Assembly: GCA_017540825.1 (NCBI GenBank)
Contig: JAFYAH010000050.1
Location: 1 to 34,628, forward strand
Source of the DNA: Candidatus Methanomethylophilaceae archaeon
GTDB taxonomy: Archaea; Thermoplasmatota; Thermoplasmata; Methanomassiliicoccales; Methanomethylophilaceae
DNA: 34,628 bases
Reading direction: 5' to 3'
Shown one piece after another: positions 13,442-31,900 of the stretch. How positions within the stretch are numbered: position 1 is the first letter of the stretch; every line of letters begins with the position of its first letter. A program made the translations under genes and the position numbers. The notes below the pieces were generated by a model. That model worked only from the letters and a program-made list of their open reading frames with translations, did not search any database and was not told where the DNA came from.

Positions 13442-14296
13442 ATCCCTCCGTCCTCGGTGCGATCGTCGGCCGTCTATCCTCTTGACGAGGTCCTCGAACA
13501 TCTCCATCGTCTTCTCGTCGGAGCTCTGGTTGAACGCGTACATCTCCCCGTCCACCGAGAAGGCTATGCACGGCCTCACCTCCGAATAGGCGGCCAGCTC
13601 GTAGTCTCCGAACATGCTGTTCCTGTAGTGGCCGCTCGATATCGTGCCGGAATGGAAGCCCATTATGCGCTTGCCCTTGTCGAAGTCGTTGATGTACTGG
13701 CAGTCGTCGACGTCGTCGTAGGAGAACGTGTGGCTGAAGAAGGGGGCGCTTATCTTGAAGCTGTCCTCCCCGAGGGATACGTCCACGGAATCCGAAGTCC
13801 CGAGGCTCCCGCCGGCGATGTACATGAAAGGGACCACAGCCAGGACGAGGGACACGGCGACGACCGCGACGCGGGTCCCCTTGGACCACGAAGGCAGAGG
13901 CGACCCTTTCGAAATCCCCTTGAATATGGGGGCCACCATGAGGACTATGGAAGCGGCTATCAGGACCAGCCCCAGCACGACGTTGTACATGATCATGGCG
14001 CAGGCCCATACGAGCACTATGGACCCGATCGCTACCCACTTGCCCCAGCGGGACGCGATCTCCCTGGACTCCTTGTCGCTCTTCGACCTCCAGTCCACGC
14101 CCACGTTGAGGAACCTGTATCCGTTGCCGTGGAGCCACTGGCACAGGCCCATGCAGACGATCGGCACGCAGCAGAACAATATGATCGCTGTGAAGACGAT
14201 GAGGAACGGGCTCCATCCCAACGCCCATGCCGCCAGAGTGGCTGCTGCCGGCACCGCGACGGATAACACGGCGTAAGGCTTAGACGTAGGCTCCAT
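13412..14296 (-). CDS. DUF3784-like/PH-like domain membrane protein
   Basis: 294 codons. The N-terminal ~150 residues carry four hydrophobic helices (LSVAVPAAATLAAWALGW, LIVFTAIILFCCVPIVCMG, WVAIGSIVLVWACAMIMYN, VLGLVLIAASIVLMVAPIF). Between the second and third is a cytoplasmic loop (GNGYRFLNVGVDWRSKSDKE) like that of DUF3784 proteins. A further helix (VVAVSLVLAVVPFMYIAGG) leads to a C-terminal beta domain (VDVSLGEDSFKISAPFFS, SYDDVDDCQYI) that resembles bacterial PH-like domains and ends in EKTMEMFEDLVKRI. The last ~17 codons are basic and lie antisense to the end of the MBL-fold gene, so the natural end was probably near 13465. Function unknown, probably membrane-associated signalling or envelope biology. 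Confidence 0.7.
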   Translation of the reverse strand: MEPTSKPYAVLSVAVPAAATLAAWALGWSPFLIVFTAIILFCCVPIVCMGLCQWLHGNGYRFLNVGVDWRSKSDKESREIASRWGKWVAIGSIVLVWACAMIMYNVVLGLVLIAASIVLMVAPIFKGISKGSPLPSWSKGTRVAVVAVSLVLAVVPFMYIAGGSLGTSDSVDVSLGEDSFKISAPFFSHTFSYDDVDDCQYINDFDKGKRIMGFHSGTISSGHYRNSMFGDYELAAYSEVRPCIAFSVDGEMYAFNQSSDEKTMEMFEDLVKRIDGRRSHRGRRDPTVVVARGV

Positions 14297-15287: not shown

Positions 15288-18227
15288 TCACTTCATGCGG
15301 TATCTGAACGAGACTAGCCCTGCTATCACGAAGAACACCAGAAGGCCGATGGTCACGTAGGTCATCGTATGGTCCTTCTTCTCTTCGACTGCCTCGTCCA
15401 GAAGGTCCACGTTGTCGTAGTGGGCCTTCCAGCCGTCGTAGTCCTCGGTCTTGACGTAGTAGCTGATGGATCCCAGGTCCACGCCGGCGAACGCTTCGTC
15501 CATGCCGCCAGGCCGAGGGCAGTACGCCTCTATCTCGGCCAGAGAGGTGCAGTTAGAGAAGGACCCTTCTCCGAGAGAGGCCAGGGACTCGCCGAACACC
15601 ACGCATTCCAGCAGGGGGGCGGCGCCCGAATTGGAGAACGCCGTGCGCCCGACGGACACCACGTTGTTCAGGTCCATGTACAGGAGACTGCTGCAGTTGA
15701 AGAACGCCCCCTCCCCTATGGTCCTCACGGAGTCCGGTATGGTGATGCTGTTGAGAGCGGAGCAGAACCCGAAGCAGTCCGCCGGGATCGCCGCTATGGT
15801 CTTCCCCAGCTTCGCCCCCGTTACGTTGCTGCAGCCGTAGAATGCCCCGCTTCCCAGCACCCTCAGGCCGTCGGGAAGGTTCACCTTGGCGAAGGTCTTG
15901 CCGGAGCAGCCCCTGAAGGCGCCGTCTCCTATGAACAGGAGTGTGTCCGGGAAGCTGACGCCGGAGAGCGAGGTGCATCCGCTGAAGGCCCCGTCCCATA
16001 TGCGCTCGACGGCGCCCATGCCGTAAACCGTCTTCAGGCCGGAATAGCGGAACGCGTCCGTCATGACGTCCCTCACCGACGACGGTATCTCCACCGTCTC
16101 GAGGCTGTGGTTCGTGTAGCGGAGCCCGTACGCGTCGTACATGTCCGCGGACAGCATGAAAGCGGAGCACCCTATGTACGACACGGGGCGCTCGCTCCCG
16201 CCGGCCGTGACAGACTTGGGAATCTGGACGTAAACGCCGGAGACGTACCTGTGGACGACGACCTCGTCGTTGACTATGTAGTAGTAGAAGGAGAACGGGT
16301 CCTTCTTGTACGCCCCCTCGTAGAGGTACAGAGGGATCGTATCGACGGAGCCGTCCCATCCGGAGGCCCCCTCCAGCCTGTGGACCGTCACCGAAGACGG
16401 GGCCTCCCCTGCGAACTCTGGAGCGTCGCCGAGGAAGTACACGTCCGGAACGGAGCTCGACCAGTTCTCCCAGCTGAAGCGTGCCACGCTGCCCGGGACC
16501 ACTATGGCAGATGCGTTCCTCACGTCGTTGAACGCCCCTGCGTCTACGGCGACAACCTGGCGGGAATTGAAGGACGAGGGCATGAACAGCACCCCTCCGA
16601 GGCAGTCGACCGCCATGGAGACGAGGGTGTTCTTCTGGACCCCCTGCTCGGACGCGATGCTGCACACGACGTCGCCGTACGGGACCACGACCTGCTCCTT
16701 GACCTCCGACGCCCCTTCGCTGTCGGTGCCGACCGCGTAGAACTGTATGACGCGGGAGCTGAACCTGACCGCGCCGCCAGAATAGTCCGCGTCCATCTGC
16801 TCGAGGGCCCCTCTGGACGTTATGTTCCATGCCGCCCCGTGAAGGCCCTGGGCCAGGCTCACGGGTATGTCGAAGACGGCGGGGGAGAGCCCTTCGGGAA
16901 GCTCCGTGACCGTGTGGCCTCCGGTCTTGAGGACGACGCTGTAGAAGACGGAGTAGTTGATCCTCTTCAGAGCGGTCGTTATCTTGATGCTGGAAGGGCC
17001 GTTGTTTATCGCGAGCGTCACGTCGTCGCCGTCGGCCAGGGAGCACAGGTCCCCCGCCCTGATCGACACGGTCCCGCGGGGGACGGCCATGCTGAACAGG
17101 ACGTCGTCGCCGAACCTGTCTGCCGCCGCTCTGATCGAGGCGGAGTCGATGGAAGCCACGCATCCGCTCCCGAACTGGGATATGTCGAACAGGACGACGC
17201 GCCCGCCCTCTGACGCCATCCGGGAGACGGTGGAGGCGTCGTGCGACACACGGACCACATTCCCTATGACGCTCCCGGCGGGGTCCCTCTCCGCCTCGTA
17301 TATCCCGGGGACCTCGCGGACGTAGACGTCCGTGTTCCCGATTATGACGGAGTCGACGCCCATCGGGCGGGTCAGCTCGGCGTCCCTGTACATCAGGGCT
17401 ATGCCGCCGTCGAACATGTCCAGGGCCGCAGCCCCTCCCAGCGCGGAGTTGTACTTCACGACCGAGGTCATGACCACGTCGGATCCGCGATGGAACGTCA
17501 CCGTGTACTCCGCCAGCGAAGGCTGGTAGAAGGCGAAGACGAACAGCGTGTCGGTGATATGGGAGAAGTCCGCGGGGCTGTTCCCGTTGGGGGTTATGCT
17601 CCAGCAGACGAACGTGTAGCTGTATCCGACCGTGGACGGCCTCGCAGGGTCCTCCGGCATGTCCGTCAGGTCCTCGCCGTACGCCACCTTCCTGACTGTG
17701 ATCAGCGTCCTGTCGTAGTCGAAGAAGCGGACCTCGCAGGACTTCGGGACGGGGTCGAACACCGCCATGACGTCCATGTCCGACGTCACCGAGGAGAGGT
17801 CCTGGCTCCATCCCGCGAAGACGTAGTCGTACATCTCGTCGGAGGCCTTGCTGGGAACGGCCGAGTACGTGGCCGGGTCGCCCTCCTTCACCACCTCCCT
17901 GTAGTAGCATATGCTCCCGCTCTCGTCGTGGTAGCTCACCACGTGGGCGGGGGTCCTGGACACGAACGTCGCCGTGAAGGTCGTGTCCTCGAATATCGGC
18001 TGGGTGACCGCCCCCCAGTACACCGTCACGTCGTCCGGGACGTCTATCGAAGGGATCTTCGAGAGGTCGGCCTGCCCCCCGTCCGCCACCTGCTGCTGCG
18101 ATATCACCGTGCCGTCCGGCAGGGCGAAGGAGACCGTATGGGTCCCGTCGGCGGAAGCCTCCCCCGAAACGGACACCGCGGAGAGCGCCAGGACAATGAT
18201 CAGCAGGAGGGCCTGGGCGGCGCGCAT
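15288..18227 (-). CDS. Membrane-anchored LRR/InlB-repeat surface protein
   Basis: 979 residues, last gene of the operon; its ATG follows the ATPase stop by one base. A signal peptide (AQALLLIIVLALSAVSVSG) is followed by InlB B-type repeats (~27-290), with AGWSQDLSSVTSDMDV and a preceding 'VxYxDESG' strand, like those of the 552-aa surface protein of this operon. A middle region (~300-650) of unrecognised beta structure comes next. BspA/LRR_5 repeats (~660-930) include WDGAFSGCTSLSGVSFPDTL and IGEGAFFNCSSLLYMDL. A C-terminal helix (YVTIGLLVFFVIAGLVSFRY) anchors it in the membrane with a short basic tail. A surface adhesin or assembly partner of the uptake system is plausible. It is unusual to find such a protein co-transcribed with ABC importer genes. 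Confidence 0.88.
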   Translation of the reverse strand: MRAAQALLLIIVLALSAVSVSGEASADGTHTVSFALPDGTVISQQQVADGGQADLSKIPSIDVPDDVTVYWGAVTQPIFEDTTFTATFVSRTPAHVVSYHDESGSICYYREVVKEGDPATYSAVPSKASDEMYDYVFAGWSQDLSSVTSDMDVMAVFDPVPKSCEVRFFDYDRTLITVRKVAYGEDLTDMPEDPARPSTVGYSYTFVCWSITPNGNSPADFSHITDTLFVFAFYQPSLAEYTVTFHRGSDVVMTSVVKYNSALGGAAALDMFDGGIALMYRDAELTRPMGVDSVIIGNTDVYVREVPGIYEAERDPAGSVIGNVVRVSHDASTVSRMASEGGRVVLFDISQFGSGCVASIDSASIRAAADRFGDDVLFSMAVPRGTVSIRAGDLCSLADGDDVTLAINNGPSSIKITTALKRINYSVFYSVVLKTGGHTVTELPEGLSPAVFDIPVSLAQGLHGAAWNITSRGALEQMDADYSGGAVRFSSRVIQFYAVGTDSEGASEVKEQVVVPYGDVVCSIASEQGVQKNTLVSMAVDCLGGVLFMPSSFNSRQVVAVDAGAFNDVRNASAIVVPGSVARFSWENWSSSVPDVYFLGDAPEFAGEAPSSVTVHRLEGASGWDGSVDTIPLYLYEGAYKKDPFSFYYYIVNDEVVVHRYVSGVYVQIPKSVTAGGSERPVSYIGCSAFMLSADMYDAYGLRYTNHSLETVEIPSSVRDVMTDAFRYSGLKTVYGMGAVERIWDGAFSGCTSLSGVSFPDTLLFIGDGAFRGCSGKTFAKVNLPDGLRVLGSGAFYGCSNVTGAKLGKTIAAIPADCFGFCSALNSITIPDSVRTIGEGAFFNCSSLLYMDLNNVVSVGRTAFSNSGAAPLLECVVFGESLASLGEGSFSNCTSLAEIEAYCPRPGGMDEAFAGVDLGSISYYVKTEDYDGWKAHYDNVDLLDEAVEEKKDHTMTYVTIGLLVFFVIAGLVSFRYRMK

Positions 18228-18228
18228 C

Positions 18229-19032
18229 TCATTCCCCTTCCGTCCTGAGGTATCTCTTGGGGAGGACGTAGATCTCGCCCTCGCGGTCGACCCCGACGCA
18301 GGACTCCACCTCGTAGACCTCCCTTATCAGGTCCTCGGTGATGACCTCCTTGGGGTCCCCGATGGTCACTATGCTGCCCTTCTTCATGATTATGCACAGG
18401 TCGCAGTACCTCGCCATGAGCGAGATGTCGTGCTCCGCGACCATGACGGTCATGTCGTTGCGGGCCATCTTCTGGAGGTACTCCATGACCTCCAGCTTGT
18501 ACTTCATGTCCAGGTGGGAGGTCGGCTCGTCGACGAGCATGACCTTCGGGTTCTGGACGTAGGCCTTGGCTATCAGCGTGCGCTGCTTCTCCCCGGACGA
18601 CAGCAGGGTCACCTGCTTCCTCCTGTAATGGTCCAGCCCGAAGGTCTGCAGGGCCTCCCTCACGACCTTCTCGTCCTCCTCGGACTCCCACCAGACCCTG
18701 TTCACGAACGGGTACCTCCCGAGCATGACCATGTCCATGACGGACATCCCGTAGATCGAGCCCACCTCCGCGGGGACGTTGGCGACCACCTTGGCGACGT
18801 CGGGAGGGCGCATCCTGGCGGTGTCCTCCCCGTCTATCACGATGGTCCCGGTCCAGTGGCCGTGGAGCTTCGATATGCACTTCATCATCGTGGACTTCCC
18901 GCACCCGTTCGGGCCGATCAGCCCCACCAGCTTCCCCTTGGGGACGTCGAACGACACCCCGTGGAGGGCCTCGAACCCGTCGAAGGATATCTTCAGGTCG
19001 CGTATCTCCATCATCGGCTTCTCATCCGTCAT
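18229..19032 (-). CDS. BtuD/FecE-type ABC importer ATPase
   Basis: 267 residues; cytoplasmic ATPase of a type II importer (cobalamin, siderophore or heme class). Walker A is GPNGCGKSTMMK, the signature is LLSSGEKQRTLIAKA (serine in place of the usual first glycine), Walker B is KVMLVDEPTSHLDMK, and the switch histidine lies in VMVAEHDISLMARYCD. The start ATG overlaps the end of the permease gene by 11 nt, and the stop is followed after one base by the LRR gene. Order and overlap show a single transcript. The corrinoid substrate is inferred from the DUF4430-like partners upstream, since the ATPase itself does not discriminate. Confidence 0.93.
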   Translation of the reverse strand: MTDEKPMMEIRDLKISFDGFEALHGVSFDVPKGKLVGLIGPNGCGKSTMMKCISKLHGHWTGTIVIDGEDTARMRPPDVAKVVANVPAEVGSIYGMSVMDMVMLGRYPFVNRVWWESEEDEKVVREALQTFGLDHYRRKQVTLLSSGEKQRTLIAKAYVQNPKVMLVDEPTSHLDMKYKLEVMEYLQKMARNDMTVMVAEHDISLMARYCDLCIIMKKGSIVTIGDPKEVITEDLIREVYEVESCVGVDREGEIYVLPKRYLRTEGE

Positions 19033-20104
19033 ATTCGCGCCCCCTCCTCACGAGCATGTATGCGAACACCGGCGTCCCTATGAGCGCGGTTATCGCCCCC
19101 ACCGGAAGCTCCAGCGGGGAGATGACCACCCTCGCGATGATGTCCGCGAAAAGCATCAGGCATGCGCCCAGGACTATCGAGGCCGGCATGATCAGCCTGT
19201 GGTCGCTCCCCAGGAGCATCCTGCAGGCGTGCGGGACGATGAGCCCCACGAAACCGATGACCCCCACGAAGGCGACGCACACGGAGGTGAGGACCGACGC
19301 TATGACCATCATGATGGCCTTGAACTTCCTGACGTTGAGACCCAGGAGCTTCGCCTGGTCCTCCCCGGACATGAACACGTTGAACTCCCTCGCCCACAGC
19401 ATCGCTATCACGGATATCCCCAGCGCCGGGATCATGACGAGGAAGGCGTTCTCCCAGGTTATGTTCCCGAAGGACCCGTACAGCCACCACATGACGTTGG
19501 TGAGGTTGTCCTTGTTCAGGGAGAGGAATATCGTCTGGACCGACGAGAACGCGAACCCTACGATGACTCCCGCCAGGATGTAGTTGGTGGCGGACCCTCC
19601 CGCGCCCTCGGCGACGGCCAGGGTGAACGCGAAGGCCAGAAGGCCCCCCACGATGGCCGCTATGGGTATGATGTACGAGCTGTAGCCGGCGAGGAACCCG
19701 AAGCTGGCTATAGTGGTGGACGCGGCCACGGCCAGGCATCCCGCCCCGGAGGACACCCCTGTGATATACGGGTCGACCAGGGGGTTCCTGATGAGGGCCT
19801 GGAACATGCACCCCGCGATGGCGAGGCCCGCCCCCACGCCGATGGCGGCGACCACCCTGGGGAGCCTGGACGCGAACACGTACAGCTCCTCCGTGGTCAG
19901 GTTCTCGCCGCCCTTGGATATCGCGGACACCAGCGACGAGAACGCGTCCGTGATGGGTATTATGCCCCCGGACGATATCGATATGGATATCAGGAACATC
20001 GCCAGCAGGAACACGGTGCCGGTGAGCAGGATGACCCTGAAGCGCCTCTTCTTGATCCTGATCTCGCTCCTGGTGTCGTCCGTGGGCACCATGCTGTCGT
20101 TCAT
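19022..20104 (-). CDS. BtuC/FecCD-family ABC importer permease
   Basis: About 360 residues from the ATG at 20104, which follows an AGGGAG site. A TTG at 20173 would add 23 unlikely residues. It is a FecCD-type permease with ~10 helices: VILLTGTVFLLAMFLISISI, SRLPRVVAAIGVGAGLAIAG followed by CMFQALIRNPLVDPYITG (the classic family signature), GSATNYILAGVIVGFAFSS, and the C-terminal VGVIGFVGLIVPHACRMLLG. The coupling segment near GLIVPHACRML contacts the ATPase. It lies between the beta-propeller gene (stop at 20178) and the ATPase gene (11-nt overlap). Family members import vitamin B12, heme or Fe-siderophores. Confidence 0.93.
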   Translation of the reverse strand: MNDSMVPTDDTRSEIRIKKRRFRVILLTGTVFLLAMFLISISISSGGIIPITDAFSSLVSAISKGGENLTTEELYVFASRLPRVVAAIGVGAGLAIAGCMFQALIRNPLVDPYITGVSSGAGCLAVAASTTIASFGFLAGYSSYIIPIAAIVGGLLAFAFTLAVAEGAGGSATNYILAGVIVGFAFSSVQTIFLSLNKDNLTNVMWWLYGSFGNITWENAFLVMIPALGISVIAMLWAREFNVFMSGEDQAKLLGLNVRKFKAIMMVIASVLTSVCVAFVGVIGFVGLIVPHACRMLLGSDHRLIMPASIVLGACLMLFADIIARVVISPLELPVGAITALIGTPVFAYMLVRRGREYDG

Positions 20105-20177
20105 GGACCTGACTCCCTTGCGAAGAGTCCCTATGACCCCTTTCAGCGGGCCCGATCCCTCCTCCTTTCCCAACCTA

Positions 20178-22079
20178 TCAGCTCCTGTACATCCTCACCA
20201 TCAGAATGGTGAAAGCCGCCAGAACGGCGAAGAGGGCTATCCACGACCAGTGGGCCAGCCCTTGCGATTCGTAAGATATGTCGGAAGAGCTCGAGCGCTC
20301 CTCCCCGCGGACCTCGGATATCACGTACACGGCCCCGTAGTCGTTGCCGACGAGCACCTTCCCGTCGACCACCGTGGGGGCGCACATGCTGTACGCGGCC
20401 CCTCCGTAGGGGCTCACCTTCGCCTTCCAGACGACGTCCCCGGTGTCCGCGCTCATGCACCACACCCATCCTCCCAGGGACCCTTCCGACCCGGGGGAGT
20501 AGTCCATGCTGTAGATCCTCCCGCCGCAGTAGGTGGTCCCGCCCACGGACAGGGCGTCGGTGGGGTGGATCCACCCCAGGGAGCCGTCGTCGACCCAGAA
20601 CGAGCAGTACCCGCTTACCAGCTCGACGTCCGCACGGGTGTAGTGGTCCACGACGGTCTTCGCGCCCTTCGAGGAGTACGTGACGTACGAGTAGAACCTG
20701 TCCCCGTAGACGGCGGGCTTGCTGCAGAGGACGTCCTGCTCCCAGATGACGGAGCCGTCCCTGAGGTCCACCAGGGCTACCCCTCCGCTGGACGAGACCA
20801 TGCCTCCGTCCGCGAAGCACACGACCGCCCTGCCGCCGGTGCAGACAGACACCGACGTGACGGCGCCGGACCTGTTTCCGCGGGAGTCGGACACGTCCGC
20901 CGCCCATATCCCCTCGCCGGTGCAGGCGTCGACGCACATCATCCTCCCGCTGTAGTTCCCGGCGACCACGACCTTCCTTCCGCCTACGTCGGTCACGTAC
21001 GGGGGGTAGTAGTAGAAGCATCCCCTGACGGACTGGTCCGGAACATGGGTCCAGATCTCCCTGAACCCCTCCTCCCTGTCCACGGAGTAGCACCTCATGA
21101 CCCCGTCGGAGGCGTCGAAGTACAGGGCCCCGCTGTCGTAGACGGCGTTGGTGATCCCGGCGTTCACATGGAGCCTGTCCTTGGCCACCGATGGGTCGCT
21201 CTTGAACACCTCGTACTCGGTGGAGCGGGACAGGTTGCACATGTCCGGGGAAGAGCCCGAGGGGTACAGCTCCGCGACGGCCTCTCCCGTGTACCTGTCG
21301 AGGCAGTACATGTGCCAGTTCCCGGAGGCCAGGACTATGAGGTCGCCGACTATCACCGGGGTGGAGATCTCTATGTTCCCCGAGTCGGAGTAGCTCGCGG
21401 ACCAAGCCACCTGCTTGTTCACCGGGTCGAGGCAGAACAGCCAGGCGAGGCTGTCCATCCCGACGCTTCCGTACAGACCTGAGACCGTGTGGTAGATCAG
21501 GCCGTCGGCGTAGAGGATCGAGCAGTCCACCGCGCCGGCGTATGCGCTGTACCACTCCAGAGGCACCGCGACCGAGCTCGGCCCGTACGACCGGCTAACC
21601 CCGTCGGAGGACGACGTCCCCCTGTAGCAGGTCCAGACGTCCTTGTAGTCCGGGGTGGAGGCGGGCACGATGGATTCCTTCGGATAGAACCCCAGGGCGT
21701 ACGAGCCGCCGAAGTACTCGAGGTCCACGTCCCTGGGCTCGGGCTCCCAAGCGACGCCGTCCCACGAGTAGACCCTCCAGACGCATTCCTGCATGTTGGC
21801 GGTGGCGTCGGTGCCTATGGTCACCGGCCCGCGGCCCCCGACGGAGCTGACGAGCCTGGAGTCCCCCTCCGAGACGAACGAGACCTCGACTCCTGCGGCC
21901 CCAAGCGTGCCGGATATGACGCCCTCCAATGAGTCGGAGGCGACGACGGGATACCATGACGTCCTCCCGTCCCCGTAGTCCACCAGCAGCTGCTCCGCAT
22001 CCTCTGCGGAGGCTTCGCATAGCATCGCCGGCGACAGAAGGGCGAGCACGATCAGAAGGAGCATCAGTCTTTTTGCCAT
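20178..22079 (-). CDS. DUF4430-like/PQQ-type beta-propeller, membrane-anchored
   Basis: 633 residues from the ATG at 22079, which overlaps the upstream binding-protein gene by 16 nt. Signal peptide: MLLLIVLALLSPAMLCEA. Residues ~28-135 look like a DUF4430 domain (LLVDYGDGRTSWYPVV, SLEGVISGTLGAAGVEV, then VWRVYSWDGVAWEPEPRDVD and YALGFYPKE). Residues ~150-590 form PQQ/pyrrolo-quinoline-type propeller blades with repeated strand sets: TPVIVGDLIVLASGNWHMYC, GGVALVDLRDGSVIWEQDVL, VWCMSADTGDVVWKAKV, PTVVDGKVLVGNDYGAVYV. A C-terminal helix (WIALFAVLAAFTILMV) anchors it, with MYRS in the cytoplasm. A propeller joined to a transcobalamin-like domain inside a BtuFCD operon is unusual. A role in ligand capture or hand-over is inferred. 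Confidence 0.85.
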   Translation of the reverse strand: MAKRLMLLLIVLALLSPAMLCEASAEDAEQLLVDYGDGRTSWYPVVASDSLEGVISGTLGAAGVEVSFVSEGDSRLVSSVGGRGPVTIGTDATANMQECVWRVYSWDGVAWEPEPRDVDLEYFGGSYALGFYPKESIVPASTPDYKDVWTCYRGTSSSDGVSRSYGPSSVAVPLEWYSAYAGAVDCSILYADGLIYHTVSGLYGSVGMDSLAWLFCLDPVNKQVAWSASYSDSGNIEISTPVIVGDLIVLASGNWHMYCLDRYTGEAVAELYPSGSSPDMCNLSRSTEYEVFKSDPSVAKDRLHVNAGITNAVYDSGALYFDASDGVMRCYSVDREEGFREIWTHVPDQSVRGCFYYYPPYVTDVGGRKVVVAGNYSGRMMCVDACTGEGIWAADVSDSRGNRSGAVTSVSVCTGGRAVVCFADGGMVSSSGGVALVDLRDGSVIWEQDVLCSKPAVYGDRFYSYVTYSSKGAKTVVDHYTRADVELVSGYCSFWVDDGSLGWIHPTDALSVGGTTYCGGRIYSMDYSPGSEGSLGGWVWCMSADTGDVVWKAKVSPYGGAAYSMCAPTVVDGKVLVGNDYGAVYVISEVRGEERSSSSDISYESQGLAHWSWIALFAVLAAFTILMVRMYRS

Positions 22080-23485
22080 TCCAGCAGCCCCTGCGCCTTG
22101 ACGTAAGTCAGGTATCCGTTGTCGCCGTCGTTGTAGCTGTTGTTGTAGTACTTCACCCCGACCACGTCGGTGGGGTCCGCCGCCTCGAAGGAGCCGGGGT
22201 CCATGATCTTGGCCAGGAGCTCCAGAGACTCCGGGAGCCTTGCGCCCGGCCTGGAGAGCAGGCTGGCAGCGTCCCCCGAGAACACGTAGACCTCCCCGTT
22301 CTGGTACGCCGGGGTCTCCTTCCACATGTCGTTCAGGTCTACCAGGAGCGCCCTGTACTCCCTCTGGGAGGTTATCTCCTTCAAATCGTAGATTATGATG
22401 ATGATCTCGGGCTGCTTGTCGTACACGGCCTCCTTGTCCACCATGAACCAGGAGTCCGAGTCCCGGGCGAATATGTTCACTGCGCCGAGGGACTCGACCA
22501 TGTTGGTGACGTAGGTGTGCCCTCCGGCCGTGTAAGGGGAGTCGCTGGCGCCGAGCGAGACGAACACCTTCTTCCCGCTCAGGTCGGCTATCCTGCAGAT
22601 GTTGTTGACCGCCTCGTTGACGTCCTTGATGTAGGAGTTGCCCCTCTCCGGGAAACCCAGGGCAGACGCGCAGATCCAGAGGTTCTTCAGGAGGTCGTCG
22701 ATGCCCTGCGCCTCGTACAGGACGACGCAGCTTATCCCGGCCTTGCGGAGCTTGTCCGCCATCGTGACGTGCTCTCCGGTGCCCCCGTCGAGGAAGACTA
22801 TGTCCGGGGTCTCGGCGACAATCAGCTCGAAGTTGGGGTCGGTGTACCCGCCTACGATCCTGACGTCGCCCTTGCTCTGCCTCTCCACGAGGCTGCGGGG
22901 ATAGTCGCAGTACCTGTCGGTGGCGACCACGTACTGCAGCCCTCCCACCGCGGCGACCGTCTCGGCGACGGAAGGGGCCAAGGCGGCGACCTTCAGCTTC
23001 TCGCCGTACGGGTTTCTCCCTTCGCTGGCGTAGCTGTAGTAGGTGAACCCGGTGGAGTCGACGGCGGGCATCATGCTGCTCCCCTCTCCCGCCCTGGCCC
23101 AGGATATTATCATCTGGCCTGAGACGTCGAAGGACGCCGGGTCCTCCACCTGCTTCCACGTGGTGCCGGCCCCGTATCCGTCCAGGACGTACAGCCCCCA
23201 GCTGACGCTTATCAGCCGAGGGATGTTGTTCACGGAGTAGACGGAGCCGTCCTCGTCGAACTCCAGCTTGTAGCCGCGCTTCTCGCATGCGGACTCGAGC
23301 GCCTCGACGCCGTTCTTGCCGCCGAGGTCCATCTCCACCCAGTCGACGTTGTAGTAGGCGAAGTCGATCATGACCCCCTGCTTGTCGTCGACGGTGTCCA
23401 CCGTGAACCCGATGAACGGTATCGAAGCCACCACGAACACTGCGACCATCGCGGCGGCGGCCAGCTTTATTGTCGATGCTCTCAT
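22064..23485 (-). CDS. DUF4430-BtuF fusion: substrate-binding protein
   Basis: 473 residues, start 8 nt after the preceding gene's stop. The N-terminal hydrophobic segment (KLAAAAMVAVFVVASIPFIG) is a signal or membrane anchor. Residues ~35-130 are DUF4430-like (VEALESACEKRGYKLEFDED, SVYSVNNIPR, WGLYVLDGYGAGTTWKQV). Residues ~165-445 are a BtuF/FhuD-type periplasmic binding protein: LKVAALAPSVAETVAAVGGL, VVATDRYCDYP, KGDVRIVGGYTDPNFELIV, AETPDIVFLDG, then KKVFVSLGASDSPYTAGGHT and a helical C-lobe. It delivers ligand to the permease and ATPase encoded downstream. Two ligand-binding modules in one chain suggest direct hand-over between them; this is inference. Confidence 0.9.
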   Translation of the reverse strand: MRASTIKLAAAAMVAVFVVASIPFIGFTVDTVDDKQGVMIDFAYYNVDWVEMDLGGKNGVEALESACEKRGYKLEFDEDGSVYSVNNIPRLISVSWGLYVLDGYGAGTTWKQVEDPASFDVSGQMIISWARAGEGSSMMPAVDSTGFTYYSYASEGRNPYGEKLKVAALAPSVAETVAAVGGLQYVVATDRYCDYPRSLVERQSKGDVRIVGGYTDPNFELIVAETPDIVFLDGGTGEHVTMADKLRKAGISCVVLYEAQGIDDLLKNLWICASALGFPERGNSYIKDVNEAVNNICRIADLSGKKVFVSLGASDSPYTAGGHTYVTNMVESLGAVNIFARDSDSWFMVDKEAVYDKQPEIIIIIYDLKEITSQREYRALLVDLNDMWKETPAYQNGEVYVFSGDAASLLSRPGARLPESLELLAKIMDPGSFEAADPTDVVGVKYYNNSYNDGDNGYLTYVKAQGLLEWQKD

Positions 23486-23493
23486 GCCTAGGG

Positions 23494-25152
23494 TCACTGC
23501 CTCTTTCTCATCAGGTAGACGCCGGCGGCTATCAGCGCCAGGCCTAGCACGGCCACCATGGCCAGAAGGGTGAAGTCCATGGAGCCTCCTTTCGCGGGGA
23601 TCTCCCTGACCTCGACCTCTCCGCACAGGGAGCAGGTGCGCGACTCCTGGCCGGGCTGGTCGGACGTAGGCTCCTTGACAGTCTTCCAGCCGGACCACGC
23701 GTGCCCGGTGGCTGGGATCGCCTCCGCCCTGGTCTCTCCGCAGACGGTGCATGTGTAGGTCTTGACGCCTCCCTCCTTGCAGGTCGCGGCCTTGGTCACG
23801 ACCCCGGCGTCCCATACGTGCTCGTGGATGTCCGGGACCGCCTTGAACACAGCGGTCACGTCCATGTCCCTGACGACGCTGGATAGATCCTCGCTCCATC
23901 CGACGAACTCGTAGGTGCATCCCTCGGAAGGCGCCTTGTAGGGCGTCTCGCCCTTGTACGTGGACGGGGACCCGCTCGGTACCGACTCGGCGTATAGGAC
24001 GACGACCTTGTTCTCGTCGTAGTAGCGGACCATGTACGTGGCGACCTCAGCGTACTGCGCCGTGAAGGTGGTGTCGCCGACTATCCTGACGGTGGTGTCC
24101 CCCCATCCCACGAAGATCTTCCCGGCCTGCGCAGGGGCCTCGGGGACCTTGGATATCCTGTCGCCGTAGCTGAGCTGCTGGGTCTCGACCACCGTCCCGT
24201 CCTCCAGCGCGAAGGTAACCATGGGGGTGCTGCTGATGCAGACTATCTCGTCCTTGTCCGGGTCGGGCTCGGGCCCTCCCTTGTCGATGACGAAGCCCTC
24301 CTCGTACGGGTCCTCGGTGGATATCAGGTATATGCACTCCACGTACCTGTAGACGGCCGGGTCGTAGAACCCGAGGGTCCAGTCGTTGTAGTACCACTCG
24401 TGGTCGACCCAGGTCCACTGGCTCCAGTACGACCAGGTGTTCTCGCCCACGAGGACGTCGCCCAGCCCGAACATGCTGTTCACCCATCCCTGCAGGTCGT
24501 TCCCGTTGGCGTCCGTGGTGTACGCCAGGTCTATCTGGAACCCGTTGGAGTCTATGGCGTCCTTCAGGACCTCTGCCATGGTGGACCCATGGCCCTTGAG
24601 CCAGAACCCCTTCTCCCTGACCTCCGCGGTGAAGGCCTCGAGGACCTCGGGGGTGTCGGGAGCGAACCCGTTGGCGAACCTGATGAACACGTACCCGTCG
24701 GCCTCGGGCCTGAAGTCGGGCGCGGAGTAGACGGTCGTCCCGTCCTGGACGCTCATCGTGGACAGGTGGAGGCAGTAGCTCGCTCCGGAAGCCATCATCC
24801 TGTCGGAGTCCGGTGCGAAGGCCATCAGGCCCCATCCGGACGTCCCCAGCGGGAGCCACTGGTGTATCCTCCACATGTGGTCCCCGTCGGCTTCGTGGCC
24901 GTCGACGGACCTGACGTTCCCTCTAGAGTTGAGCTCCATGGTCTTCCCCTGGTCGGCCAGGGCAGCGTCTATGGCCTCCCTCACCGTGGAGACCCCGCCG
25001 ACCACAGACATCTCGTAGCTGCCGTCCGGCTCCTCGACGAAGACCCTGACGTCGTCGCATGCCGCGGCCGAGCTGCCGTCCGACAGCGCGAGAGCAGGGG
25101 CGAGGAGCGCCAGAGCGGCCAGGATCACCAGGGCGATGCTTCCGTAACGCAT
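23494..25152 (-). CDS. Surface protein with two DUF4430-like domains and CxxC repeats
   Basis: 552 residues, first gene of the operon; ATG at 25152 with GGAGG at 25160-25164. Signal peptide (SIALVILAALALLAPALA). The first DUF4430-like domain (~34-130) has STVREAIDAALADQGK, GNVRSVDG and MWRIHQWLPLGTSGW. The second (~153-278) has MAEVLKDAIDSNGFQIDL, WVNSMFGLGDVLVGENTW and YYNDWTLGFYD. InlB-type repeats follow (~310-440, EFVGWSEDLSSVVRDMDV). Then come two repeats of the bacterial CxxC type (TYTCTVCGETRAEAIPATGH and SRTCSLCGEVEVREIPA). A C-terminal helix (LLAMVAVLGLALIAAGVYLM) plus MRKRQ anchors it. DUF4430 domains are related to the ligand-binding end of transcobalamin, so it is a good candidate surface corrinoid receptor. 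Confidence 0.88.
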   Translation of the reverse strand: MRYGSIALVILAALALLAPALALSDGSSAAACDDVRVFVEEPDGSYEMSVVGGVSTVREAIDAALADQGKTMELNSRGNVRSVDGHEADGDHMWRIHQWLPLGTSGWGLMAFAPDSDRMMASGASYCLHLSTMSVQDGTTVYSAPDFRPEADGYVFIRFANGFAPDTPEVLEAFTAEVREKGFWLKGHGSTMAEVLKDAIDSNGFQIDLAYTTDANGNDLQGWVNSMFGLGDVLVGENTWSYWSQWTWVDHEWYYNDWTLGFYDPAVYRYVECIYLISTEDPYEEGFVIDKGGPEPDPDKDEIVCISSTPMVTFALEDGTVVETQQLSYGDRISKVPEAPAQAGKIFVGWGDTTVRIVGDTTFTAQYAEVATYMVRYYDENKVVVLYAESVPSGSPSTYKGETPYKAPSEGCTYEFVGWSEDLSSVVRDMDVTAVFKAVPDIHEHVWDAGVVTKAATCKEGGVKTYTCTVCGETRAEAIPATGHAWSGWKTVKEPTSDQPGQESRTCSLCGEVEVREIPAKGGSMDFTLLAMVAVLGLALIAAGVYLMRKRQ

Positions 25153-25304
25153 TGAATATCCTCCATGTTCGTCTCTCAGGCGGCGAGATGCTGATCCGCG
25201 GCCTGAGGCAGGACGGCGGCGCATGATGCTGGCACGAATCGCACGCATGCATGTCACTTCCATCCATCGTCTTTCTTTTGAAATCATGTACACGTTATAT
25301 AATA
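25153..25304 (-). promoter_or_regulatory. Promoter and leader of the uptake operon
   Basis: ATTATATA on the minus strand (25296-25303) is a good TATA box. Initiation about 25 nt downstream leaves a leader of roughly 120 nt before the ATG at 25152, long for this window. The leader holds a 7-bp inverted repeat (CTCAGGC 25175-25181, GCCTGAG 25201-25207) and the GGAGG site. No cobalamin riboswitch core is visible. Confidence 0.5.
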
Positions 25305-25461: not shown

Positions 25462-28400
25462 TCAGATCTCCCAGAGGACCCCGTCGGACCCGGAGAGCGC
25501 CTTGCCGGCAAGGGCGCTGGCCGAATGCGGCAGAGTGCCTCCGGCGGCCGACCTGAACACGATCCCCTGGAACGCTCCGGAGCCGAGCTTCTTGACGGCC
25601 TCCGGCATGACCGCGGTCTCGAGGGGGCAGGACTCGAAGGCGCTGTCCCCTATTGTCGCGGACGCCGACTCGAACTCCACGCGGGAAAGCTCGGAGCACT
25701 CGTAGAAGGCCTTTGCGCCGACGCTGGTGACCTTGGACGGCAGGATGGCCTCCTGTATGGGCGTGTACGCGAACGCGTAGGACCCTATGGTCTTCAGGGA
25801 GGCCCCGAGCGACACTTCGGACAGCTTGGTGCACTTGTAGAAGGCGTAGGAGCCTATGGTGGTCGCCGAGTCGGGGATGGCCACGGAGGTCAGCGACTTG
25901 CAGCCGTAGAACGCGTAGGCGCCGACCGTCTTCAGGGGCTCCCCGAACTCGATGCTCTTCATGCCGGAGCATCTGGCGAACGCCTTGATTCCTACGGAGG
26001 ACACGCTGTCCGCGTCGACAGGGGCGATATAGGTGCAGCCGTAGAACGCGTAGGAGCCTATCCTCTCGACGGAAGGCATGGCGACGGTGCGTATCTTGGA
26101 GTAGTCCTTGAAGGCGGAATCGCCTATCGCGGTCACCCTGCACTGGATCCCGCTGCAGTCGACGTACTCGGGGACGGTTATGTTCCTGAAGGAGCCGTCA
26201 TGGCCGATGACCTCGACCTCGGCGGGCAGCGAGGATGTCACCCTGTAGGTCAGCTTGCCGTAGGTGAACACGTAATCGGGCTGGACTCCGGCCTGGCGGA
26301 CGTACCTGTCGCCCGACTTCTGGTAGACGTAGCCGCTCAGCGCATCCGGGGACAGTCCCAGGACGGCGCCGTGCTCGTCGGCCATATCGGCAGGGAAGGG
26401 GCTGGTCGTTCCTATCGTGGATACGGACGACGGGACCGCTATGGAGGTCAAAGCGGTGCACTTGTAGAACGCATAGGAGCCTATGGCGCTCAGGGTCCCG
26501 GCCGAGTCTTCCAGGTTGACGCTGGCCAGCTTGGTGCACCTGTAGAACGCGTAGGCGCTGAGGGTCTTGAGGCTCTCCCCGACGTCGACGGTCTTGAGCT
26601 TGGTGCAGCTTGCGAACGCCTTCATCCCTACGGTGGACACTCCGCCGAGGTCGGCCTTCGTGATCGTGGTGCAGTTCTTGAACGCCTCCTTGCCGATGGA
26701 CGTCACCGGGACGGGTATGCCTCCGAAGGAGACCGTCTCGGGGACCACCAGTGAGGAGGGGGCCGTCTCGTACCCGACCAGGGACGCGGCCCTCGGCTCC
26801 AAGGACGTGACGGCGTACACGAGGCCGTTCTTCACGACTGTGTCGCCCACGGAGAGCGCCACCTTGTAAAGGGACTTTCCGGAGCCCTCGAAGTCGTGCC
26901 CGGGGAGGGAGTCGACAAAGATCTGGGACGCGCCGTCGTAGAACTTCAGGCCGTAGAACGCGTTGTTCCCGAAGCTGGCGACGGACGAGGCCACCGACAG
27001 CGACTCCAGCGCGGTGCAACCGCTGAACGCGCTCGTCCCGACGCTGCTGACGCCTTCGGAGATGACGACGCTCTTCAGCGCGGTGCATCCGGAGAACGAG
27101 TATCCTCCCGGGTTAGACCCTATGCGGACCGACGTCAGGGACGTGCAGTTGGCGAACGCCTTCAGGCCGACGGACGCGCCGTCCACGACGACGGACTCGA
27201 CGTCTCCGCAGTTGAAGAACGCCTTCTCCCCGATGGACTTCACGATGAACGACATGTCGGAGAAGCGGACAGAGAACGGCACGTGCAGGCGGGCGGGACA
27301 CTCCTCGTAGCCGATCAGGGAGACCTCCAGCGGGAGGACGGAAGTGACCTTGTACACTAGCCCGGAGACGACGAAAGTGTCGCCGACAGCGGCCTGCGAG
27401 CCTATAACCAGCATTCCAGGCGCGTACGAGAACGTGTAGTTGCTGGCGGACCCTCCCGACGGGACCAGCATGTAGGAGCCGGCGGAGAGGCACTCGGCCG
27501 ACACTGAAGGCGCGACGTATCCGGAAGCGGTCGAGGCGGTCTCGCCATAGACGAACCCTGTGACGCCGACCTGGAGCGCGGGCGAGGACCCGGCGGGTAT
27601 GGATTCGCTGACGTATGTAGCCACGAGGGTCGCAGGCGATATGCTCCAAGCGACGGACTTGTTGTCGAAGGTGCAGTCCTCCCATGCGTATCCGTCGTTC
27701 AGTACCAAGGTGGCGGAATAGCTGCCTGCGTCCTTGGCCGTGCCTCCGATGACGACGTAGGCGTCGCTCTGCTCCACGCCCGTCTGGGAGATTCCGGTGT
27801 AGACCAGTCTGCCTGCCTCGGGAATCCTAGCAGGCTGGACCATGGCCCCGCTCTCCTCGGTCATGCCGTATATGAGAGAGAAATTGCCCCCGTCCTTGTA
27901 GTACCCCAGCGTGAGGTCGTTGTAGACGCCGTCGTGGAACTGGATCCAGTACCTCCACAGGCCGTTGTCGTAGTACACGTCGCCAAGGCCGAATATGTCG
28001 TCGACCCAGTACATCAGGGCCTCCGACCCCGAGTCTCCGCTGTAGAACGAGCAGGGTATGCCCACGCTGTTGAGGACGGTCTCCAGGGCGGCCCCGGCGT
28101 CATGTCCCTGGGAGGTCAGCGTTATCCCTTCCCTGAGGTCGTCGGCGTCGTATCCCGAGCTGCCGAAGTCCGCCTCGTCCGCGCAGAAGTCCATCCTCAG
28201 GAAGAAGGTGAACGTGGCGTCTGGAAGCACATCCACCTGGCATGTGTCCGTCTTCCCCCCTGCGGTAGCGGTTATCGTCGAGGTCCCGATGGAAAGGGCG
28301 GCCAGGTTCCCGTCCTGGTCCACGGTTACCGCGCTGGTGTTGGAGCTGCTCCAGGTCACCTCGGGATGCGTGGCGTTGGACGGGCGGACCGTGGCCGAAA

Positions 28401-28812
28401 GAGTGTAGGTGTCCGTCACGCGAAGTGTCAAGCTCTCCTCGTCTATGGCGACGGACGTCACTTCTATGTCATGAGGGACCTCTATAGGCCAGAAGGATGT
28501 CTGAGAAGTGGTTCCGACCGATGTTGCTATGGCCTTCAGAGTCGCGGAGTCGCCTATCTCGCACCTGATGTCGGCGGAGAAGCTCTGGTTGCTGACGATC
28601 GCGAAAGCCCTGGTCACTTGAACGCCGCCCTCGTAGACCTCGAACCGCATCGACGACACCCAGGACGGCGCTGTGCCCTCTACATGCACCATCCCGTCCG
28701 CATAGACCGCGGTGAGCTCCACCGAGCTCTGGTCTGCGTCCGAGTCCGACGACAGAGCGGGCAAGGACGCTGCGACGGCCGCCGCCAGAAGCATCAGGAC
28801 TGCGACGCGCAT
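25462..28812 (-). CDS. Giant secreted Big_2/DUF4430-like/MBG/LRR protein (1116 aa)
   Basis: Start chosen at the ATG at 28812 because AGGAG lies 5 nt upstream and a signal peptide (RVAVLMLLAAAVAASLPALS) follows directly; an in-frame ATG at 28848 would hide it. Order: beta-sandwich (~28-112), Big_2 Ig-like domain (~113-195, with TLSATVRPSNATHPEVTWSS), DUF4430-like domain (~197-320, AALETVLNSVGIPCSFYSGD, YWVDDIFGLGDVYYDNGLW), one MBG-like repeat (~325-470, AGSYSATLVLNDGYAWEDCT), then BspA/LRR_5 repeats to the end (IGSYAFYKCTKLSEVSLGAS). There is no C-terminal membrane helix or known anchor; the chain ends GSDGVLWEI. Paralogue of the next gene upstream. Probably a surface-exposed adhesin or receptor; the attachment mechanism is unknown. 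Confidence 0.88.
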   Translation of the reverse strand: MRVAVLMLLAAAVAASLPALSSDSDADQSSVELTAVYADGMVHVEGTAPSWVSSMRFEVYEGGVQVTRAFAIVSNQSFSADIRCEIGDSATLKAIATSVGTTSQTSFWPIEVPHDIEVTSVAIDEESLTLRVTDTYTLSATVRPSNATHPEVTWSSSNTSAVTVDQDGNLAALSIGTSTITATAGGKTDTCQVDVLPDATFTFFLRMDFCADEADFGSSGYDADDLREGITLTSQGHDAGAALETVLNSVGIPCSFYSGDSGSEALMYWVDDIFGLGDVYYDNGLWRYWIQFHDGVYNDLTLGYYKDGGNFSLIYGMTEESGAMVQPARIPEAGRLVYTGISQTGVEQSDAYVVIGGTAKDAGSYSATLVLNDGYAWEDCTFDNKSVAWSISPATLVATYVSESIPAGSSPALQVGVTGFVYGETASTASGYVAPSVSAECLSAGSYMLVPSGGSASNYTFSYAPGMLVIGSQAAVGDTFVVSGLVYKVTSVLPLEVSLIGYEECPARLHVPFSVRFSDMSFIVKSIGEKAFFNCGDVESVVVDGASVGLKAFANCTSLTSVRIGSNPGGYSFSGCTALKSVVISEGVSSVGTSAFSGCTALESLSVASSVASFGNNAFYGLKFYDGASQIFVDSLPGHDFEGSGKSLYKVALSVGDTVVKNGLVYAVTSLEPRAASLVGYETAPSSLVVPETVSFGGIPVPVTSIGKEAFKNCTTITKADLGGVSTVGMKAFASCTKLKTVDVGESLKTLSAYAFYRCTKLASVNLEDSAGTLSAIGSYAFYKCTALTSIAVPSSVSTIGTTSPFPADMADEHGAVLGLSPDALSGYVYQKSGDRYVRQAGVQPDYVFTYGKLTYRVTSSLPAEVEVIGHDGSFRNITVPEYVDCSGIQCRVTAIGDSAFKDYSKIRTVAMPSVERIGSYAFYGCTYIAPVDADSVSSVGIKAFARCSGMKSIEFGEPLKTVGAYAFYGCKSLTSVAIPDSATTIGSYAFYKCTKLSEVSLGASLKTIGSYAFAYTPIQEAILPSKVTSVGAKAFYECSELSRVEFESASATIGDSAFESCPLETAVMPEAVKKLGSGAFQGIVFRSAAGGTLPHSASALAGKALSGSDGVLWEI

Positions 28813-28874
28813 CCAAACTCCTACGCCTGTATTGTTTTTTTCTATCATATTATCGCCTTTTATTTGTTTTTTAG

Positions 28875-28949: not shown

Positions 28950-31900
28950 TCAGAGCTCCCAGAGGACGCCTCCTTCGCCTGTGAAAGCCTTCCCGGACAG
29001 GCGGGACGCGGCATGCGGCAAGGCGCTTCCCGCGGCGGACTTGAACGCGAGGCCCTGGAACGCGCCGGAGCCGAGCTTCTTGATGGTGGCGGGCATGATG
29101 ACGCATTCCAGCGAGCAGGACTCGAAGGCGCCGTCGCCGATCGTGACGGAGGCTCCCTCGAACTCCGCGAAGACCAGGCTGGAGCACATCTGGAAGGCGT
29201 TGGCGCCGATGGAGGCCACCTTCGACGGCAGGACGATGCTCTGGATAGACGTGCAGGCGAAGGCATAGGAGCCTATCGTCTTCACGGAGGCACCGAGCGA
29301 CACGTCGGAGAGCCCTGTGCACTTGTAGAACGCGTAGGACCCAATGGTGGTCGTCGAGTCGGGGACGTCGACCGACGTCAGGGACTTGCAGCCGTAGAAC
29401 GCGTACGCGCTTATGGTCTTGAGCGAGGGGCCGAAGGATATCTGTCCCATGCCGGAGCACCTGGCGAACGCCTTCACGCCTATCGACGCGACGTTGTCCG
29501 TGTCCGTCGGGACGACGTAGGTGCACCCGTAGAAGGCCATGCTTCCGATCCTCTCGACGGAGGGCATGCTCACGGAGCGTATCTTGGCGTAGCCCCTGAA
29601 GGCCTCTTCGCCTATGGCGGTGACCTTGTAAGAAACGCCGCCCTTCTCGACGGACTCCGGGATGGATATGTTCCTGAACGACCCGTCGTGCCCGACTACC
29701 TCCAGCTCCGCCGGCAGGGTGGACACGACCCTGTAAGTCAGCCAGCCCACCTGGAACTCGCCTCCGATCTCCGCCCCAGGCTGGCGAACATAGACTCCGC
29801 CGGACTTCTTGTAGACGTACCCGTTCAGGGCGTCGGGAGTGGGGGCGAGGAGGCTTCCGTCCTCGTCCGCCATGTCCCCCGGGAAAGACGTGGCGCTGCC
29901 TATCGTGGTCACGAACGAGGGGACGGCGATGGAGGCCAGCGCGGAGCACTTGTAGAAGGCGTAGGAGCCTATGGCCCTAAGGGCCTTCCCGGAGTCCTCG
30001 AGGTTTATGCTGGACAGCTTGGTGCACCTGTAGAAGGCGTAGGCGCTGAGCGTCTTCAGGTTCTCCCCGACGTCCACCGACTTAAGGTTGGTGCAGCTGG
30101 CGAAGGCCTTTATCCCCACTTCGGAGACTCCGCCGAGGTCGGCCTTCGTGATCGTGGAACAGTTCTTGAAAGCCTCCTTGCCTACGGAGGTTATCTGGAC
30201 TCTGACGCCGTCGCAGGTCACGTATTCGGGAACGACCAGGCTGGACGGGGCGGACTCGTACCCCGACAGGGACGCCTTCCAAGGGTTCGAGGAGGCGACG
30301 GTGTACACCAGCCCGTCTATCGCGAAGGTGTCCCCTGCCGAGAGCCTCGCCTTCCACAGGGCTTTACCGGTCCCCTCGAAGTCGTGCCCTGAAAGGTCGG
30401 ACGCGCTGGCGCCGATCCTCGTGCCGCCGTCGTAGAACGTCAGGCCGTAGAAGGCGTTGGAGCCCACGCTTGAGACGGACGAGGCCACAGAGAGGGACTC
30501 CAGGGCGATGCACCCACTGAACGCGCTCTGCCCTATGCTCTGGACGCCTTCTGAAATCTCGACGTCCCTGAGGGCGGCGCATCCGAAGAACGCGTACCCG
30601 CCTATGTCTGAGCCGACGGCGACGGCCTCAAGGGACATGCAGTAGGAGAAGGCCTTGAGGCCAACGGAGGCGCCCCCTGCGTCGACGGACGCCACGTCGG
30701 AGCACTCGTAGAACGCCTTCTCGCCTATGGAGGTCACGGCGAACGACGTGTCCGAGTAGCGGACGCGGGACGGCACCTTCAGGCGGGCGGGGCAGTCCTC
30801 GTATCCCGTGAGGGAGACCTCGCGGGGGCTGAGGGAGGTCACCGTGTACACGAGACCGAACGAGACGAAGGAGTCGCCGACGGATGCGCCAGGGAGTATC
30901 GTGAGCGTCCCTGGGACGTACGAGAAGGAGTAGTTCCTGGCGGAGCCTCCGGACGGGACTAGGGTGTAGGTCCCTGGCGACAGGGAGCCCGCCGACACGG
31001 AAGGCGCGACGTATCCTGCGGCTGTGGAGGCGGTCTCGCCGTTAACGAACCCCGTGACGGACACCCGGAGCGAGGGGCTGTCCCCCTGAGAGATGGCCTC
31101 GCCGACGTAGGATGCCACGAGAGGCGCGCGCAAGATGGTCCAGCTGACGGCCTTTTCGGAATGAGATCCGTCCGCCCAGACGCAGCCGTCGTCCAGGGAC
31201 AGCCTTGCGGAATACGTCCCGGCGTCCCTTGCGACGTTGCCGGATATGCTGTATCCCGCTCCGGACGGCACCCCGACGCGATACTGGCCGTTGTAGACGA
31301 GGCCTGTCGCGGCGGAAGGCAGGTTGACAGGCACGTCGGAAGCCGTTATGGTGAGCGTCCCGGAAACATAGGTGAAAGAGTAGTTCCTGGCGGAGCCTCC
31401 GGACGGGGCAAGGGTATAGGTGCCGGGGGACGAGGATGTCGCGGAGACGGCGGGAGCGACATAGCCCGAGGCCGTCGAGGGGCCCTCCCCGCCCACGAAC
31501 CCTTCGACGGAAACCTGGAGCATGGGGGACGATCCCGCCTGCACGGTCTCGCTGACGTATGCGGCGGTCAGCATGGCGCGGGATATCGTCCAGCTGACGG
31601 TCTTTACAGAATGGGACCCGTCCGCCCAGACGTAGCCGTCGTCCAGGGACAGCCTTGCGGAATATATCCCGGCATCCCTGGCGACATTGCTCGAGATGCT
31701 GTATCCCGCTCCAGACGGCACCCCGACGCGGTACTGGCCGTTGTAGACGAGGCCTGTCGCGGCGGAAGGCACATCGACGGGCACGTCGGAAGCCGTGACG
31801 GTCAATGTACCAGGGACGTACGAGAATGAGTAGTTCCTGGCGGAGCCTCCGGACGGGACTAGGGTGTAAATCCCTGGCGACAGGGTGCCCGCCGACACGG

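Follow-up and report, generated by a model that had tools for sequence, protein, structure and literature searches.

Methanomassiliicoccales depend on corrinoid methyltransferases for methane production. It has been reported that BtuC is abundant in this order and that BtuCDF transporters occur beside adhesin-like proteins (ALPs) (2024, PMC10804542), and an earlier study (Burroughs et al. 2007, PMC1796856) described proteins that combine SLBB with a beta-propeller, as well as SLBB operons that include CbiO/CbiQ. Here we analyzed a 34,628-nucleotide stretch of DNA (the window; contig 52 of a 2.37-Mb draft genome of a Candidatus Methanomethylophilaceae archaeon) and focused on one 473-residue open reading frame (ORF) on its minus strand (23485→22064; ATG start, stop at 22064-22066). 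This ORF encodes a BtuF-like substrate-binding protein (SBP) preceded by a predicted transcobalamin-like SLBB domain, and is referred to below as the SLBB-SBP fusion. We computed its domain anatomy, fold, operon, conservation, docking residues and aromatic cage; the relatives compared were Methanomethylophilaceae/Methanomassiliicoccales genomes, mostly gut metagenome-assembled genomes (MAGs). SLBB-propellers and archaeal BtuCDF systems are already known. In the open-access literature we found no description of an SLBB-SBP fusion or an SLBB-propeller-BtuC fusion, and no paper holding both "SLBB" and "BtuF".

Results

A predicted transcobalamin-like domain precedes a BtuF-type protein

The first-pass annotation of this sequence had proposed a complete BtuF-type protein behind a DUF4430-like pattern, with domain bounds at residues 30-135 and 160-473. 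The BtuF-type part was borne out by Pfam Peripla_BP_2 (PF01497), which matched residues 166-402 (E 1.7e-29, 103.4 bits against a cut-off of 27.5), and by structure matches: the fold (Foldseek target-normalized TM-score, TMt, ~0.8) and profiles group this lobe with E. coli BtuF and with heme/siderophore class III SBPs. The NCBIfam BtuF equivalog PRK03379 gave 63.6 bits, below its cut-off of 234 bits. The bounds that we found, 35-132 and 166-436, lie near those first proposed.

AlphaFold2 produced a confident model of the full-length protein from a 69-row alignment (mean predicted local distance difference test, pLDDT, 90.9; predicted template modelling score, pTM, 0.86) and of the isolated N-terminal domain (N-domain; pLDDT 86.7, pTM 0.80). 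In both models the N-domain has the order b-b-alpha-hairpin-b-b-b of a beta-grasp fold with a hairpin after the helix (b1 37-41, b2 47-51, helix 59-70, hairpin 74-76/82-85, b3 94-102, b4 109-113, b5 126-132). A beta-hairpin insert following the helix of the beta-grasp fold is what defines the transcobalamin-like SLBB clade (PMC1796856). Full-length Foldseek searches return the SBP only, and the N-domain was therefore folded and searched separately. Ranks 1-14 against the PDB were exclusively transcobalamin, haptocorrin, intrinsic factor and R. gnavus 3u7z, the structure of a bacterial DUF4430-type protein (probability 0.99-1.00, E 1.3e-3 to 4.2e-2, query-normalized TM-score, TMq, 0.50-0.59; the E-values are modest and the ranking uniform), and the matches below rank 14 were unrelated ubiquitin-like and Raf Ras-binding-domain folds of lower probability. 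Profile-profile comparison (hhalign) of the N-domain with Pfam-verified DUF4430 domains of the same order gave prob 93 and E 3e-7; negative controls with the SBP lobe gave prob <1.

Single models were blind to this domain. Pfam and NCBIfam scans returned nothing in it, and the Pfam DUF4430 model PF14478 had no match in 29 homologues even at E<=5, nor in the fusion's own genome at E<=0.1, the curated cut-off of 23.8 bits not being reached. An N-domain profile hidden Markov model (HMM) searched against PDB sequences gave only BLIP-II matches at chance level. The DUF4430-like pattern of the first-pass annotation thus stood as a transcobalamin-type fold and a profile-profile match, and failed as a match to PF14478. 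Because the top Foldseek matches and the profile-profile comparison agree, we conclude that the N-domain is, as predicted from models and profiles, a transcobalamin-like SLBB (beta-grasp) domain fused to the SBP.

The N-domain carries two invariant residues, D41 and W96, among the 69 homologue rows, and its ratio of nonsynonymous to synonymous substitution rates (dN/dS) is 0.09-0.47 across eight comparisons, which indicates purifying selection. Pfam is blank across residues 1-160, as would be expected if a disordered leader or a mis-called start had been annotated in front of an ordinary BtuF. With 69+ homologues conserving the N-terminal part and its invariant residues, a dN/dS well below 1 and a confident fold, such an artefact has next to no chance of being the explanation; a disordered leader in particular is ruled out by the AlphaFold2 fold and by purifying selection. 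At the level of the model, the N-terminal part is ordered and separate from the BtuF lobe, the outcome on which the earlier proposal hinged.

The linker between the two domains is conserved among the same rows (D143 in 69/69, G146 in 64/69, Y150 in 63/69 and Y152 in 64/69) and was modelled at pLDDT ~90 at residues 141-160 of the full-length protein versus 54-61 at residues 134-152 of the isolated N-domain. An ordered, highly conserved linker together with a pTM of 0.86 is easier to reconcile with two domains forming one integrated unit than with two flexibly tethered modules, and the whole-chain pTM would imply a defined placement of the domains. The N-terminal segment is hydrophobic (best 19-residue Kyte-Doolittle (KD) score 2.37; N-terminal KD>=1.6 in 63/69 homologues) and a lipobox-like motif occurs in only 3/69. 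Based on this hydrophobicity and the rarity of the lipobox, the protein is predicted to be anchored in the membrane.

Docking glutamates and four corrin-cage positions are kept

In E. coli BtuCD-F, BtuF E72 and E202 form salt bridges to BtuC R56/R59/R295. We found that E220 and E352 of the fusion align with these two glutamates, and that the BtuC of the window keeps the three arginines (R103/R106/R348). The corrin is lined by six BtuF residues, Y50, W66, W85, F162, F168 and W196 (PMC5269720). Four of these positions, Y50, W66, F168 and W196, correspond to Y192, Y214, Y318 and W346 of the fusion, and they are aromatic in 97-100% of the 69 homologues (Y192/F in 67/69; Y214/F, Y318/W/F and W346 each in 69/69). 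In the siderophore SBPs FecB, FepB and FhuD, the docking acids are kept and the aromatic cage is not. This comparison of cages is alignment-based, and with alignment imperfect between proteins so distant it provides support, not proof, for a corrinoid. Since the BtuC-docking glutamates and four of the six cage positions are kept, we infer that the ligand of the fusion is probably a corrinoid. The case is strengthened by the ECF (energy-coupling factor) partners found in sister families (see below), as B12 import is known both for BtuCD and for some ECF systems, including the ECF B12 importer studied in PMC5997447. The corrinoid-protein (PF02607) matches in the genome, at least seven in number, point the same way.

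The fusion gene lies in an importer operon with further SLBB proteins

The fusion gene is part of a tight minus-strand run that leads from a secreted SLBB protein through the fusion, an SLBB-propeller, BtuC and BtuD to a BspA-type surface protein; two large adhesin-like genes lie upstream of this run (Table 1). The ATG of the propeller gene lies 16 nt inside the fusion gene. The N-domains of the propeller and the fusion are clearly homologous (hhalign prob 97-99, E 1.5e-11 to 3e-17), so the SBP may have gained its SLBB domain from this adjacent gene. Two regions of the secreted protein matched the N-domain of the fusion in hhalign (prob 98.9, E 2e-17 for one and prob 95.7, E 1e-8 for the other). 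SLBB-like segments were also found in the larger adhesin-like protein (prob 94.0 against the fusion N-domain, 95.9 against the DUF4430 set) and, more weakly, in the smaller one (51 and 88, respectively). In the window's neighbour proteins, SLBB was missed by single-profile HMMs and detected by profile-profile comparison. The suggested link of the fusion to an importer and to surface proteins bearing related domains is supported. An Rfam scan found no cobalamin riboswitch in the window.

As a separate observation, the SLBB-like segments of the two adhesin-like proteins suggest that some proteins of this kind may serve cofactor capture. The window also contains, at 34167-34601 on the minus strand, an ORF of near-perfect ~13-residue repeats (EGLLKGRAEGREE...).

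Table 1. Coordinates of the fusion gene, its parts and associated genes; positions refer to the window unless a locus (L) is named.
Feature	Position	Strand	Evidence
SLBB-SBP fusion gene, 473 aa	22064..23485	-	Peripla_BP_2 E 1.7e-29; AlphaFold2 pLDDT 90.9, pTM 0.86
N-terminal hydrophobic segment, residues 1-30; putative signal anchor or signal peptide without lipobox	23396..23485	-	Model helix 2-20
Predicted transcobalamin-like SLBB/DUF4430-type beta-grasp domain, residues 35-132	23090..23383	-	Fold and profiles
Conserved linker, residues 133-160, motif PAVDxTGxxYYxY	23006..23089	-	Conservation; model pLDDT
BtuF-like class III SBP, residues 166-436	22178..22990	-	Pfam, fold, profiles, residue alignment
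SLBB + PQQ/BamB-like beta-propeller + C-terminal transmembrane segment, 633 aa	20178..22079	-	PQQ_2 E 1.9e-14
BtuC-type permease (FecCD)	19022..20173	-	PF01032 E 3.4e-87
BtuD-type ATPase	18229..19032	-	ABC_tran E 5e-30; best NCBIfam match corrinoid ABC ATPase, below cut-off
BspA-type LRR surface protein, final gene of tight run	15288..18227	-	LRR_5 E 5.4e-52; syntenic in close relatives
Secreted protein, two SLBB-like domains + List_Bact repeat, likely ATG ~25152	23494..25293	-	hhalign
Adhesin-like LRR/Big_2/MBG protein, weak SLBB-like segment ~residues 200-345	25462..28848	-	hhalign
Large adhesin-like LRR/Big_2/MBG protein, SLBB-like segment ~residues 190-335	28950..33665	-	hhalign
Sister-family SLBB-propeller/CbiQ loci	L150 10964-14242; L151 6683-11407; L152 4722-10122

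The fusion is the family-wide form of the SBP in Methanomethylophilaceae

A match was present in 56/60 genomes of relatives, and in Methanomethylophilaceae most matches span both domains; SBPs without the N-domain exist too, chiefly in other families. All 77 of the 77 fusion proteins scanned contained the SLBB domain; the scan used SBP-lobe patterns, which did not select for the N-domain, though retaining the best 80 of 496 loci favours full-length matches. The gene order SLBB-SBP, SLBB-propeller, BtuC, BtuD was found in 56 of the 58 loci with enough downstream sequence. This pattern of fusion and operon recurs across many independent assemblies, though most relatives are MAGs. The first-pass annotation had called for a search for the same fusion in other archaea, and the fusion proved to be present throughout Methanomethylophilaceae, not only in the source genome, and to be the form that the SBP takes across the family. 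Our genome search covered archaeal genomes of the phylum. Among 293 genomes of the phylum, strong N-domain matches (E < 1e-25) occurred only in Methanomethylophilaceae and in one genome of another family in the order. Weaker matches (E 1e-11 to 1e-4) were mostly open frames of 570-1085 residues, and those examined were propeller proteins. One locus, L068, holds two tandem SLBB-SBP units in a single 874-codon frame (10001-12625).

The tree of fusion proteins splits into type I, which includes the window (24 rows), and type II (43 rows), both with a Shimodaira-Hasegawa-like approximate likelihood ratio test (SH-aLRT) support of 99. Propeller and BtuC share one open frame (~950-1000 codons) in 41/43 of type II and are separate in 22/24 of type I; overall they are joined in 42/65 loci. 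The source genome carries a second cassette on contig 33 that is a complete type II, one frame of it containing both FecCD (E 6e-84) and PQQ_2. The physical joining of the capture module to the permease in relatives supports a joint function in the window's cassette as well.

The SLBB-propeller-BtuC receptor-permease fusion (42 loci among L036-L110, and L148 ~10903-14073 in the second cassette of the source genome) is nearly fixed in type II and is possibly more unusual than the SLBB-SBP fusion. In front of that second cassette, L148 7810-9492 encodes a 560-aa protein with repeated DUF4430-like domains, for which PF14478 gave 22.1 bits, just below the cut-off.

In the sister families (L150-L152), the SLBB-propeller gene has a CbiQ gene in its vicinity. 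L151 and L152 show it followed by genes for a stand-alone DUF4430 protein, CbiQ and a tandem ABC ATPase, with an ECF S component in L152 as well.

Discussion

The reading that we favour, and whose chances we consider about even, is that of a corrinoid-importer SBP with a transcobalamin-like SLBB jaw that acts with the SLBB-propeller. The fusion would supply substrate binding to a BtuCD-type importer of corrinoids (B12/cobamides), its SBP having gained an SLBB domain between the N-terminal membrane anchor and the SBP body, and it would partner the SLBB/beta-propeller surface protein of the next gene, anchored at BtuC (and covalently joined to it in the sister clade). The SBP cleft and the SLBB beta-hairpin would together grip the corrinoid, much as the alpha and beta domains of transcobalamin hold B12 between them. 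The jaw would then open once the SBP docks on BtuC via its two glutamates, perhaps aided by the permease-side SLBB. In this scheme the SLBB domain could be a second jaw or a tethered co-receptor for corrinoid capture; the jaw role itself is tentative, its prospects falling slightly short of even, and is favoured by a linker that is ordered in the full-length model and not in the isolated N-domain, and by analogy with transcobalamin, whose two domains come together only around bound B12 (PMC5599065). A further elaboration would be a single-chain B12 trap, in which SBP cleft and SLBB jaw enclose the corrinoid and the second SLBB, on the BtuC-tethered or fused propeller, releases it; we consider this fairly unlikely.

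Several findings weigh against a corrinoid importer with an SLBB jaw. The cage residues W85 and F162 of BtuF are not aromatic in the fusion (D233 and L311). The two signature glycines of the SLBB superfamily are only partly kept, with Gly at candidate position 59 in 30/69 rows and at candidate position 87 in 35/69 (row P0001 lacks it at 87). Furthermore, the genome carries CbiD and CobS; judging by its genes it can probably make its own cobamide. On this ground we reject a B12 auxotroph, and a lack of synthesis would not be what makes import necessary. For a methanogen whose genome has at least seven corrinoid-protein (PF02607) matches, salvage of scarce or preferred cobamides is plausible.

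The capacity for cobamide synthesis, the near rank of heme/siderophore class III SBPs to BtuF in fold and profile searches, and a distinct metabolite for archaea raised in PMC1796856 would all fit the same architecture with another ligand (heme, a siderophore, another tetrapyrrole or a metal chelate). This is improbable in our view, given that the cage is kept as in BtuF, unlike in FecB, FepB and FhuD, that the N-domain has a transcobalamin fold and that sister families have an ECF/CbiQ partner.

Other alternatives concern what the SLBB domain does. It may no longer bind ligand and instead pair with the SLBB domains of the propeller (or propeller-BtuC) and surface proteins, as a dock or scaffold that holds the SBP near permease and receptors. 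The paralogous SLBB domains in adjacent genes, the frequent fusion of propeller to BtuC (42/65 loci) and the suggestion that co-encoded extracellular SLBB proteins form complexes (PMC1796856) speak for this, but ligand binding is what transcobalamin-type SLBB domains do wherever their function is known, and we regard pure scaffolding as rather unlikely, though a serious possibility. The relay put forward in the first-pass annotation, with the SLBB domain as an independent capture site handing corrinoid to the SBP cleft, gains from the finding that the isolated human transcobalamin beta domain binds cobalamin alone (PMC5599065) and from the receptors with related domains encoded alongside. The ordered, conserved linker and the pTM of 0.86 suggest in the models a fixed rather than mobile arrangement, and a relay is accordingly an unlikely account of the fusion.

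The conserved SLBB-SBP pairing beside importer genes points to a so far undescribed mode of capture for B12-like cofactors, and within one archaeal order a single surface capture module is coupled to importers of two unrelated kinds, ECF and BtuCD. If the corrinoid-importer reading is true, transcobalamin-like domains on the SBP as well as on the permease side of a conserved importer would explain how these organisms compete for cobamides in the gut. Such an importer would also parallel in structure the animal B12 carriers that these microbes meet, and would offer defined proteins to test in rumen methane studies. Were the B12 trap true, it would give gut methanogens a machine for high-affinity cobamide capture and hand-over built from animal-transcobalamin and bacterial-BtuCDF-type parts.

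Comparison with known systems

The fusion resembles E. coli BtuF/BtuCD-F, a class III SBP with a type II ABC (ATP-binding cassette) importer, in its SBP fold, in the docking glutamates equivalent to E72/E202 with their BtuC arginines R56/R59/R295, and in four of six aromatic cage positions; E. coli BtuF, in contrast, is a free ~245-residue periplasmic protein without an N-domain, and the fusion is without the W85 and F162 aromatics. With the beta domain of transcobalamin, intrinsic factor and haptocorrin, its top PDB matches, the N-domain shares the predicted beta-grasp fold and the hairpin insert after the helix, whereas the SLBB partner here is an SBP and not an alpha/alpha toroid. It departs from the transcobalamin-like SLBB clade (Pfam DUF4430) in going undetected by PF14478 and in keeping the two candidate SLBB glycines in only part of the rows. 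Bacteroides BtuG, a surface seven-bladed propeller (PMC6143338), is alike by analogy only, as a propeller encoded with a B12 importer; BtuG acts with BtuB at the outer membrane, and we found no sequence relation between it and the propeller described here. BtuG homology is thus unsupported by sequence, the propeller's PDB matches being BamB and PQQ (pyrroloquinoline quinone) dehydrogenases.

The Methanomassiliicoccales BtuCDF systems reported previously (PMC10804542) come from the same taxonomic order as this locus and share its transporter type and ALP context, and that report makes no mention of DUF4430, transcobalamin, propeller domains or fusions. The SLBB systems of Burroughs et al. (2007, PMC1796856) are similar in their SLBB and propeller neighbour and in having paralogous SLBB proteins in one operon, and their ECF version turns up in the sister families. 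Here, by contrast, the module is tied to BtuCD and SLBB is also found on the SBP, neither of which was described there.

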